A stretch of DNA of 64,000 nt, from NCBI GenBank assembly GCA_014762635.1, contig JABURR010000068.1, positions 1 to 64,000 on the forward strand, given 5' to 3'. How positions within the stretch are numbered: the first letter of the stretch is position 1; each line of letters starts with the position of its first letter. The position numbers were made by a program, and so were the translations under genes. The DNA is from Paracoccaceae bacterium (GTDB taxonomy: Bacteria > Pseudomonadota > Alphaproteobacteria > Rhodobacterales > Rhodobacteraceae). The notes under the pieces were generated by a model. That model saw only the letters and a program-made list of their open reading frames with translations. It was not told where the DNA came from and did not search any database. Positions 17,940 through 19,246 of the stretch are shown here, piece by piece.

Positions 17940-18722
17940 TCAGCCCTCGCCGTGGCTGAGGGCCAGCCCGTAATCGTCGAAGATCGCCCGCGCGGCGGGG
18001 GACTGGAGGTAGGCGTAGAACGCCTCGGCCACCGGTCCGGCGCGCTTGGTGAGGGCCATGCGCTGGCCCAGCGGTTCGTGCCAGTCGGCCGGGATCAGGG
18101 CGAACTCGCTTCGGGCCGCCACGTCCGGCGCCACGGCAAGGGAATAGGACACGATCCCCCCGTCCGCATTGCCGGAGACGGCGAATTGCGCGGCCTGGGC
18201 GATGTTCTCACCGATCACGAGGTGCGGTTCGATCGCCTCCCACAACCCGGCATGGATCAGCGCCTCACGCGCACGCTGGCCATAGGGGGCGTGTTCGGGG
18301 TTGGCGATGGCGAAGCGCCCGAGGCGTCCGTCCTGAAGCGCGGCGCGCAGGTCTTCCAGCGTGCCATCGGGTTTCAGGTCCGATCCCCGCGGCACCAGCG
18401 CCCCGATCCGCCCCTGGGCATATAGAACGCCCTGATCGCGCAGGCGACCCTCTTCAGCCAGCGTCAGCACGAAGCTTTCATCCGCCGAAAGGAACAGGTC
18501 ATAGGGCGCGCCTTGCCGGATTTGCCGCGCAAGATTGCCCGAGGCGCCGAAGGTCAGGCGCACGGTCTCGCCGGTTTCTGCCTCGAAGGCCTGGGCGATC
18601 TCGACCAGGGCGAATTGTACCGAGGCCGCCGCCGCCACGACAGGCGACTCGGCCGCCGCGATGCGGGGCAGGGTGGCCGCCCAGAATGCCAGGGCGAAAG
18701 CGATCAGGCGCGCGAATGTCAT
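17940..18722 (-). CDS. modA: Molybdate-binding periplasmic protein ModA
   Basis: A 260-residue substrate-binding protein with signal peptide ending AATLPRIAAAES. It has the ModA signatures VVAAAASVQFALVEIAQAFE, LTFGASGNLARQIRQGAPYDLFLSAD and GENIAQAAQFAVSGNADGG. It binds molybdate or tungstate in the periplasm. First gene of modABC. No convincing ModE-type operator was found upstream, only a short CCCCTTTCGGGG hairpin near the start. Confidence 0.9.
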   Translation of the reverse strand: MTFARLIAFALAFWAATLPRIAAAESPVVAAAASVQFALVEIAQAFEAETGETVRLTFGASGNLARQIRQGAPYDLFLSADESFVLTLAEEGRLRDQGVLYAQGRIGALVPRGSDLKPDGTLEDLRAALQDGRLGRFAIANPEHAPYGQRAREALIHAGLWEAIEPHLVIGENIAQAAQFAVSGNADGGIVSYSLAVAPDVAARSEFALIPADWHEPLGQRMALTKRAGPVAEAFYAYLQSPAARAIFDDYGLALSHGEG

Positions 18723-18824
18723 GGCCTTGGAACATCCCCTTTCGGGGAAACCATATCGGCGGGCCTTCCGGCCCTCAATCGCCTTCTTGTCCCCGCGACC
18801 GGGCGTCGCGCGGCGTCCGGTAAT

Positions 18825-18864
18825 AAAAAAACGGCGGTACCGGGGAGGAGGTCGGTACCGCCGT
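18825..18864 (-). ncRNA. CcsR-like RNA hairpin with CCUCCUCCC loop, distal copy and Rho-independent terminator
   Basis: Read on the minus strand: an 11-bp perfect stem (arms 18831-18841 and 18854-18864) with loop GACCTCCTCCCC, followed by a T-run at 18830-18825. This is both a canonical terminator and a match to the CCUCCUCCC-loop small RNAs (CcsR) that Rhodobacter produces by processing the 3' end of a DUF1127 mRNA. The DUF1127 gene lies 50 bases upstream in transcription. Confidence 0.75.
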
Positions 18865-18867
18865 CAA

Positions 18868-18902
18868 TTGTCAGGGCTCCAGGGAGGAGGAAGAGCCCTG
18901 CA
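18868..18902 (-). ncRNA. CcsR-like RNA hairpin with CCUCCUCCC loop, proximal copy
   Basis: An 8-bp perfect stem (arms 18872-18879 and 18893-18900, CAGGGCTC/GAGCCCTG) encloses a loop that reads TTCCTCCTCCCTG on the minus strand. Together with the copy at 18825 it forms a tandem of two exposed anti-Shine-Dalgarno-like loops after the DUF1127 stop. This is the same architecture as the four-copy CcsR array of Rhodobacter sphaeroides. Confidence 0.75.
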
Positions 18903-18913
18903 ACGGGAACTTG

Positions 18914-19132
18914 TCAGCTATAGGCCGCTTCCGCCGCGATGCGGTGGATCTCGCCGCGGCCGATGTTCAGGTCGTCCAGCTCGCGATCGCTGAGCGAATT
19001 CAGCTCGGTCACGGTGGTGCGGTAGACGCGGTGCTGGATCATGCGAGTCGTGAAGGCTTCGGCAAACTGGCGAAACTGGGCAATGATCCCGTTGCCGGTG
19101 CCGCGTGCGAGGTCGATATTGATATAGGCCAT
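18914..19132 (-). CDS. DUF1127 protein, CcaF1-like
   Basis: A 72-residue protein with the DUF1127 C-terminal motif (YRTTVTELNSLSDRELDDLNIGRGEIHRIAAEAAY). In Rhodobacter the DUF1127 protein CcaF1 is an RNA-binding stress protein whose mRNA 3' end yields the CcsR small RNAs. The same arrangement exists here, with two CCUCCUCCC hairpins directly after the stop. ATG at 19132 has AGGAGG upstream on the minus strand. The equivalent Rhodobacter operon is under alternative heat-shock-type sigma factors. I did not identify the promoter with certainty here. Confidence 0.85.
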   Translation of the reverse strand: MAYINIDLARGTGNGIIAQFRQFAEAFTTRMIQHRVYRTTVTELNSLSDRELDDLNIGRGEIHRIAAEAAYS

Positions 19133-19225
19133 TTTGAGCCTCCTGAAGTCCGTGGCGCCCGACTGCGCCGTTGAGACCAATTTAATCGGATGCTGCGCGC
19201 GCACAATAATCAGGACGGAATTGCT

Positions 19226-19246
19226 GCCATGCAGCATATGCATGGC
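19226..19246. promoter_or_regulatory. Palindrome upstream of the DUF1127 gene
   Basis: GCCATGCA, five bases, TGCATGGC: a perfect 8-bp inverted repeat about 95-115 bases before the DUF1127 start. Spacing and symmetry suit a dimeric regulator, but no factor can be named. Confidence 0.35.

Follow-up and report, generated by a model that had tools for sequence, protein, structure and literature searches.

Small RNAs with CCUCCUCCC loops have been described alongside short DUF1127 genes in several systems. In Rhodobacter sphaeroides, the ccaF1-CcsR1-4 operon (RSP_6037) begins with a DUF1127 gene, continues with CCUCCUCCC units, and ends in an intrinsic terminator (PMC10253847). An RpoHI/RpoHII promoter has been assigned to it (PMC10253847; PMC8307010), and a second DUF1127 gene of this species, rsp_0557, is also reported to be under RpoHI/RpoHII control (PMC10673084). 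The CcaF1 protein aids the cutting of CcsR by RNase E (PMC10253847, PMC8625941), and a role of CcsR1-4 in the down-regulation of pyruvate dehydrogenase has been reported (PMC7074977). The cuckoo or CIN1 motif (Reinkensmeier and Giegerich 2015, as related in citing papers) comprises adjacent hairpins near a short DUF1127 gene, whose CCUCCUCCC loops are conserved and whose stems vary. In Sinorhizobium meliloti, NfeR1 (ar14, RF02344) is a stand-alone RNA with three CCUCCUCCC hairpins behind a TGCA-N6-GCAT box, which is bound at -72 to -60 of nfeR1 by the LysR-type activator LsrB (PMC10746234). In Brucella, three DUF1127 genes and AbcR2 are under the control of VtlR, the orthologue of LsrB, for which the box CAATGCAGCCATGCA is reported (PMC12595884). 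The VtlR regulon (Brucella; in Agrobacterium abcR1, atu1667, and vrsA) joins a LysR-type regulator with DUF1127 genes and anti-Shine-Dalgarno sRNAs. According to a paper of 2025, LsrB occurs in Rhizobiales alone (PMC11975290).

The window, i.e., the whole 64-kb stretch of DNA that was analysed, carries on its minus strand a locus of the same build as ccaF1-CcsR1-4 (Table 1). According to a preliminary description, a DUF1127 gene is followed here by CcsR-like hairpins, the second of which ends in a T-run terminator, and both points hold: a PF06568 gene is followed by two CCUCCUCCC loops, and hairpin 2 runs directly into seven T at 18831-18825. Hairpin 1 starts 13 nt past the DUF1127 stop codon, and its loop motif lies 23 nt 3' of this codon. 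The arms of both hairpins (18900-18893/18879-18872 and 18864-18853/18842-18831) are 100% complementary; the perfect stem of 8 bp described for hairpin 1 is correct, while that of hairpin 2 has 12 bp instead of 11. A generic terminator scan, limited to loops of 3-8 nt, reported no terminator at hairpin 2.

Table 1. Features of the DUF1127-CcsR locus in the window, its neighbour modA, and two paralogous operons.
Feature	Position	Strand	Remarks
modA, adjacent to the locus and probably transcribed separately	17940..18722	-	TIGR01256, 175.7 bits
One CcsR-type sRNA unit, two hairpins	18826..18904	-	RF02791 positions 1-83, 48.7 bits, E 7.5e-11
Hairpin 2 (intrinsic terminator)	18825..18864	-	12-bp perfect stem, loop CCUCCUCCC at 18851-18843, U7
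Hairpin 1	18872..18900	-	8-bp perfect stem, loop with CCUCCUCCC at 18890-18882
DUF1127 (CcaF1-like) protein	18914..19132	-	72 aa; PF06568, 43.9 bits (cut-off 23.3)
AGGAGG Shine-Dalgarno of the DUF1127 gene	19139..19144	-	partly complementary to the CcsR loops
TTAAAT, probable -10 from its sequence	19180..19185	-	relatives tend to CCTATNTT
TTGTGC, probable -35	19201..19206	-	fixed in the search pattern; judged by spacing to the next AT-rich hexamer
Conserved promoter element	19191..19242	-	TGCA-N6-GCAT (19242-19229), GGCAGCAAT, spacer class 13-14 nt, TTGTGC-N4-GCAGCA
DUF1127-CcsR operon on contig C1 (L025)	C1:11321-11726		variant loops, missed by exact-motif search
DUF1127-CcsR operon on contig C24 (L023)	C24:5073-5481		variant loops, missed by exact-motif search

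The hairpins, unlike the motif count, are rare by chance. The two loops are the only exact copies of CCTCCTCCC in the window, a number that is unremarkable in itself, as 23 of 100 shuffles of the window reach two. Random 9-mers of the window lie inside a perfect stem of at least 8 bp at a frequency of 0.0012 and of at least 11 bp at 0.0002. An 89-nt RNA with both hairpins folds with -43.9 kcal/mol (z -7.85, 0/200 shuffles as good); hairpin 2 by itself reaches z -7.28 (0/200), and the value for hairpin 1 by itself is modest (z -2.27, 6/200). In an alignment of 13 units hand-picked from 50, compensatory changes that keep the pair occur at 9 of 15 predicted pairs, namely 5/11 in hairpin 2 and 4/4 in hairpin 1; three of the latter four pairs are, in addition, disrupted in two to three rows.

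The two hairpins form a single CcsR-type unit, and the second doubles as the terminator. The CcsR1 model of the ccaF1-CcsR1-4 operon (RF02791, 83 positions) itself holds two CCUCCUCCC hairpins, and the window pair matches it from end to end. In contrast to the R. sphaeroides operon, there is one unit, not four, and the terminator is hairpin 2 itself. The match comes from a permissive scan and, despite its full length, stays below the gathering score of 65.3 bits; hence we call the unit CcsR-type only, not a member of RF02791. The ar14 model (RF02344) likewise gives 50.3 bits at 18827-18939, below its gathering score of 58.8, and at gathering scores Rfam finds only three tRNAs in the window. 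The CcsR1 cut-off is a strict yardstick: in the family, matches at E<=1e-6 occur in 203 of 295 genomes, and the gathering cut-off, under stricter filters, is reached in 10. With two adjacent hairpins, conserved CCUCCUCCC loops on variable stems, and a short DUF1127 gene alongside, the window locus adds one more member to the CIN1/cuckoo type known from the literature.

The genome from which the window comes (3.55 Mb, 98 contigs, 95.9% complete, 2.18% contamination) carries four paralogous DUF1127-CcsR operons, one in the window and the others on contigs C1, C24, and C48; the fourfold occurrence in one genome is a further difference from ccaF1-CcsR1-4. The genome holds 36 exact CCTCCTCCC sites (reversed pattern, 25); nine of these are loop motifs of hairpins that follow DUF1127 genes, two of them in the window and seven on C48. 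At all nine the motif is wholly unpaired in the predicted fold, compared with 3 of 20 other sites. By a strict perfect-stem measure, the 27 remaining sites have stems of at most 4 bp and the seven C48 hairpins of 2-10 bp, the low values at C48 arising because some of its stems are interrupted. The C48 operon ends in one further, degenerate terminator hairpin with a shortened loop, and its array passes the ar14 cut-off twice (63.7 and 61.1 bits), whereas the window unit does not. On C1 and C24, the DUF1127 genes are followed by compact two-hairpin units with the variant loops CTCCTCCC and then ACCTCCC, and a T-run. Exact CCTCCTCCC was discarded as the sole hairpin criterion; it missed both of these units and also those in five of the six fetched DUF1127 loci without an exact motif. 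Searching the genome with CcsR1 (E<=0.01) gave six matches, solely at the four operons and best in the window, although of 14 unrelated control genomes two also gave weak matches.

Seven DUF1127 genes are present in this genome, and four of them have the promoter element described below. For the other three, neither this element nor the exact motif was found in the sequence examined around them. The window protein shares 54% identity with its paralogue on C1, 49% with C24, and 46% with C48, and the AGGAGG Shine-Dalgarno of its gene is common to C1 and C24. In a poorly resolved tree of DUF1127 proteins, built from 85 rows and 72 columns, the window gene is unplaced and C1 with C24 is the sole supported pair among the genome's own genes. 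Alignment of the leader sequences suggests that the window locus (C8) is nearer to C24 and C1 (z 6.6 and 5.4) than to C48 (z 3.4), with z-scores computed against plain base shuffles. Contamination as a source of the extra copies is not suggested by GC content, which is 0.62-0.66 at the four loci and 0.634 in the window.

A further common property of the four operons is a conserved promoter element. Its strict pattern has exactly four matches in the 3.55 Mb, all directly upstream of the DUF1127 genes of these operons, and the reversed control gives none. Most DUF1127 genes fetched from the family are preceded by the same stretch, and a minority lack it. Of 295 family genomes, 182 contain a related pattern, almost always as a single copy, and its reversed control gave 0 in every one of the 295; the window genome ranks first with four copies and the next has two. 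We fetched 80 of the first 90 element sites listed, from 79 genomes. A DUF1127 gene lies downstream at 72, at least one CU-loop hairpin, with variant loops counted, at 79, and one or the other at all 80, while the same hairpin detector gave no candidates on 80 shuffled loci. At the eight sites without a detected DUF1127 gene, the hairpins follow directly, with 69-206 nt from the element to the first exact motif. A scan of named genomes returned at least 118 element sites in at least 117 stretches, and among the 99 listed with at least 700 nt downstream, 95 have the DUF1127 gene, 97 the hairpins, and 99 either. This sample overlaps in part with the 80 sites; for example, one contig of 1,340,823 bases is in both. 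In eighty titles among the named-genome matches listed, every genus, family, or order name is one that we assign to Rhodobacterales, and a few titles go no lower than class.

Across the 80 sites, the consensus reads TGCR-N6-GCATRGCAGCATTG, TTGTGCANNYGCAGCA, and then an AT-rich stretch resembling CCTATNTT. The spacer is only ever 13 or 14 nt, though 8-16 nt were allowed. The TGC columns lay outside the search pattern, yet T and G are present in 80/80 sites and C in 75/80; TGCA is found in 53 and TGCR in 75. With TGCATATGCTGCAT at 19242-19229, some 70 nt ahead of the inferred start, the window has the TGCA-N6-GCAT box that precedes NfeR1, with the difference that here a DUF1127 gene stands between the box and the RNA. 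Judged by its sequence, the element resembles the box of VtlR/LsrB, the LysR-type regulators of Rhizobiales. The reverse complement of CAATGCAGCCATGCA is identical at 12 of 15 positions in the window and at 12-14 of 15 in the 80 sites, an agreement weaker than it appears because 10 of the 15 are fixed by the search pattern. The consensus GCAT-N3-TG-N3-T, given for VtlR in two papers (PMC7486931; PMC8844928), is one base off in the window (GCAT-GGC-AG-CAA-T, A for T) and occurs in 3 of 80 relatives' sites. Relative to the VtlR regulon, the present case differs in this one consensus position, belongs to another bacterial order, and unites protein and RNA in one operon.

The arrays behind the element vary widely in size and arrangement. 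The 80 fetched loci hold 0 to 26 exact motifs, the upper end exceeding the 2-4 hairpins quoted for the cuckoo motif by papers citing its description. The largest array in the sample, with 26 exact CCTCCTCCC sites (L165/L067, at about 334900-336500 of G189:C1), is partly repeated as a higher-order unit of three hairpins. Stand-alone units of two hairpins, each with its own T-run, are found at L203, L211, and L234. In genome G276, protein and RNA are separated on contigs C95 and C106, each behind its own element: one element precedes the stand-alone two-hairpin RNA (L203), and the other a DUF1127 gene at which no hairpins were detected (L204), the sole hairpin exception among the 80. Roseobacter sp. 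LH_M50 (L281) carries the promoter element twice on one strand, about 220 nt apart. The plasmid pCBA4604-01 of Paracoccus jeotgali (L361) bears the element, a DUF1127 gene, and seven exact motifs. A general tie of the operon to plasmids was considered and dropped, as the protein search yields just three plasmid records.

Since a near-invariant LsrB-type element stands specifically before these operons and almost every sampled genome encodes an LsrB-like protein, a missing regulator of the operon can be predicted. An HTH_1 profile search of the window genome gave 18 LysR-type matches, 17 of them above the cut-off. One of these (L107, C77:94017-93115) has A. tumefaciens LsrB (9HH1) as its best PDB match at 253 bits, with the next chain at 115, and in a six-frame comparison it is the best of the 18 loci against LsrB (249 bits; runner-up, 134). 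Overall identity to A. tumefaciens LsrB is 43%, and the DNA-binding end is conserved, with 49 of the first 65 residues identical. An LsrB-like protein is present at E<=1e-60 in 288 of 295 family genomes, although 113 of the 295 have no exact match of the element, and the matches listed share 77-86% identity. Both cysteines C144 and C273 of A. tumefaciens LsrB are missing in L107, whose sole cysteine is Cys190. The gene is also not a neighbour of trxB, which lies on contig C88, where none of the 18 LysR-type matches is found. Because of these two differences, L107 may respond to another signal and may not be a strict orthologue. A search by way of AbcR (ar15, RF02345) in 115 genomes of the class gave no match, which is not proof of absence.

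A LysR-type gene on contig C49 (L126, C49:11896-12377), divergent to a DUF1127 gene without the strict element, could be a rival regulator candidate. As an LsrB it was rejected, its best PDB match being LrhA, with LsrB at rank 26. A plasmid of Pseudorhodobacter turbinis (L363) shows a LysR-type gene divergent to one or more DUF1127 genes, again without the strict element, and the two cases possibly represent a second kind of LysR-DUF1127 pair. No report of LysR control of CcsR was found in the open-licence papers searched.

The best explanation of the locus, and one we consider probable, is a complete DUF1127-CcsR operon of the CIN1 type with LsrB/VtlR-like activation, a processed sRNA, and anti-Shine-Dalgarno targeting. 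The LysR-type activator encoded on C77 would bind the box at 19242-19229 and turn on the operon. Transcription would then yield one short mRNA from the DUF1127 gene through hairpin 2, the terminator predicted from its sequence. By analogy with CcaF1 and CcsR, RNase E, aided by the DUF1127 protein, may release a stable RNA of about 80 nt from the 3' end. Its two CCUCCUCCC loops would act as anti-Shine-Dalgarno seeds and block translation at ribosome sites of the GGGAGGAGG type. Several observations count against this account: the mismatch to the VtlR consensus, the cysteine and trxB differences of L107, the RpoHI/RpoHII promoters reported in R. sphaeroides, the 113 family genomes with no exact element despite 288 with the regulator, the three DUF1127 genes of this genome that lack it, the possible rival on C49, and Rfam scores below gathering.

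Candidate targets were sought among all 27 exact motif sites outside the hairpins, where the opposite strand reads GGGAGGAGG. A plausible Shine-Dalgarno before a recognisable gene exists at two of them. The best candidate in the genome is pdhA, encoding the pyruvate dehydrogenase E1 alpha subunit (TIGR03182, first 150 residues): GGGAGGAGG lies 6 nt before its ATG, so that the perfect 9-nt complement of the loop is its Shine-Dalgarno. Repression of pdhA would be expected to damp oxidative carbon metabolism under stress, and the match is a prediction consistent with the published effect of CcsR1-4 on the pyruvate dehydrogenase complex. The other site (L359, C93 at about 3066) has GGGAGGAGG 7 nt before a GTG and is a second candidate by sequence; the gene, named by eye, is an apparent response regulator. 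Duplexes with the loops are predicted at about -20 kcal/mol for pdhA and -10 to -12 kcal/mol for the Shine-Dalgarno of the operon's own gene. As a target modA was set aside, with a weak duplex of -7 to -9 kcal/mol compared with pdhA, and four hits of the start-codon scan (L002, L004, L005, L356) were judged by eye to be internal or antisense frames.

Transcription could alternatively depend on an RpoHI/RpoHII promoter alone, without an LsrB-like protein; the element would then be an extended sigma promoter or be recognised by another factor. Such a promoter is the one described for ccaF1-CcsR (PMC10253847; PMC8307010); the literature names RpoHI/RpoHII where we find an LsrB-type element. Moreover, the downstream half, ATTGTGC followed by CCTATNTT, could be a -35/-10 pair, and a consensus of CTTGAA-N16-CCTATAT is on record for RpoH1 of S. 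meliloti (PMC8844928). We nevertheless regard this account as unlikely: TGCR-N6-GCATRGCAGCATTG falls at roughly -70 to -48 relative to the inferred start, beyond the usual sigma contacts, the unselected columns of the upstream half are conserved, and among the 80 fetched sites the element stands solely before such operons.

The RNA itself might be read more simply, with hairpins that chiefly end and stabilise the DUF1127 mRNA, have no role in trans, and keep their CU loops by descent. In favour of this, hairpin 2 is an intrinsic terminator by its sequence. In the 13 picked units, however, the loop is conserved while the stems covary; the number of exact motifs per locus ranges over the whole span given above; eight of the 80 sites have hairpins but no detected DUF1127 gene; and related RNAs act in trans (PMC10746234; PMC8307010). 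Taken together, a function confined to the mRNA end seems very improbable. We give still less credence to the idea, put forward in the preliminary description, that the pair represents two separate CcsR RNAs left over from a shrunken four-RNA array. Two CCUCCUCCC hairpins do stand beside the DUF1127 gene, but 18904-18826 matches RF02791 as one unit, and the compact units of C1 and C24 have the same build. Nor is the array reduced, because the same genome has one locus with eight hairpins and three with two, and the copy-number comparison across the family, which had been proposed as a check, also speaks against a reduction.

On a broader scale, we see an even chance that these parts belong to an ancient circuit of Rhizobiales and Rhodobacterales, in which an LsrB/VtlR-type activator of DUF1127 genes is coupled with anti-Shine-Dalgarno hairpin RNAs. 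In Rhodobacteraceae the regulator would have become dedicated, with its box solely at DUF1127-CcsR operons; the split parts in G276 each keep the box, and the window genome would have amplified the operon to four. CcsR RNAs are a model of stress sRNAs derived from 3' UTRs and have hitherto been described as RpoHI/RpoHII-driven. Four things appear to be new: an LsrB-type element across Rhodobacteraceae that is specific to this operon, an LsrB-like protein in that family, four copies of the operon in one genome, and stand-alone units behind the same element; none of them was found in print in the open-licence papers searched. The presence of the protein in Rhodobacteraceae contradicts the published claim that confines LsrB to Rhizobiales. 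As a sequence tag, the element also finds these operons, and with them RNAs that stand alone and loop variants missed by the exact motif or by Rfam cut-offs.

Downstream of the CcsR unit lies modABC, and the preliminary description had asked whether modA transcription starts independently. The modA leader (18722-18822, minus strand) contains GC-rich hairpins, but its fold is no better than that of shuffles (z about -1), and no Rfam family was found in it at gathering score. A simple scan revealed no sigma-70-like promoter before modA. The intrinsic terminator and about 100 nt separate the CcsR unit from modA, and a search for modA (E<=1e-3) found none in about 2 kb around each of the 80 related loci. 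For these reasons the modABC neighbourhood looks incidental, and modA is likely transcribed separately.
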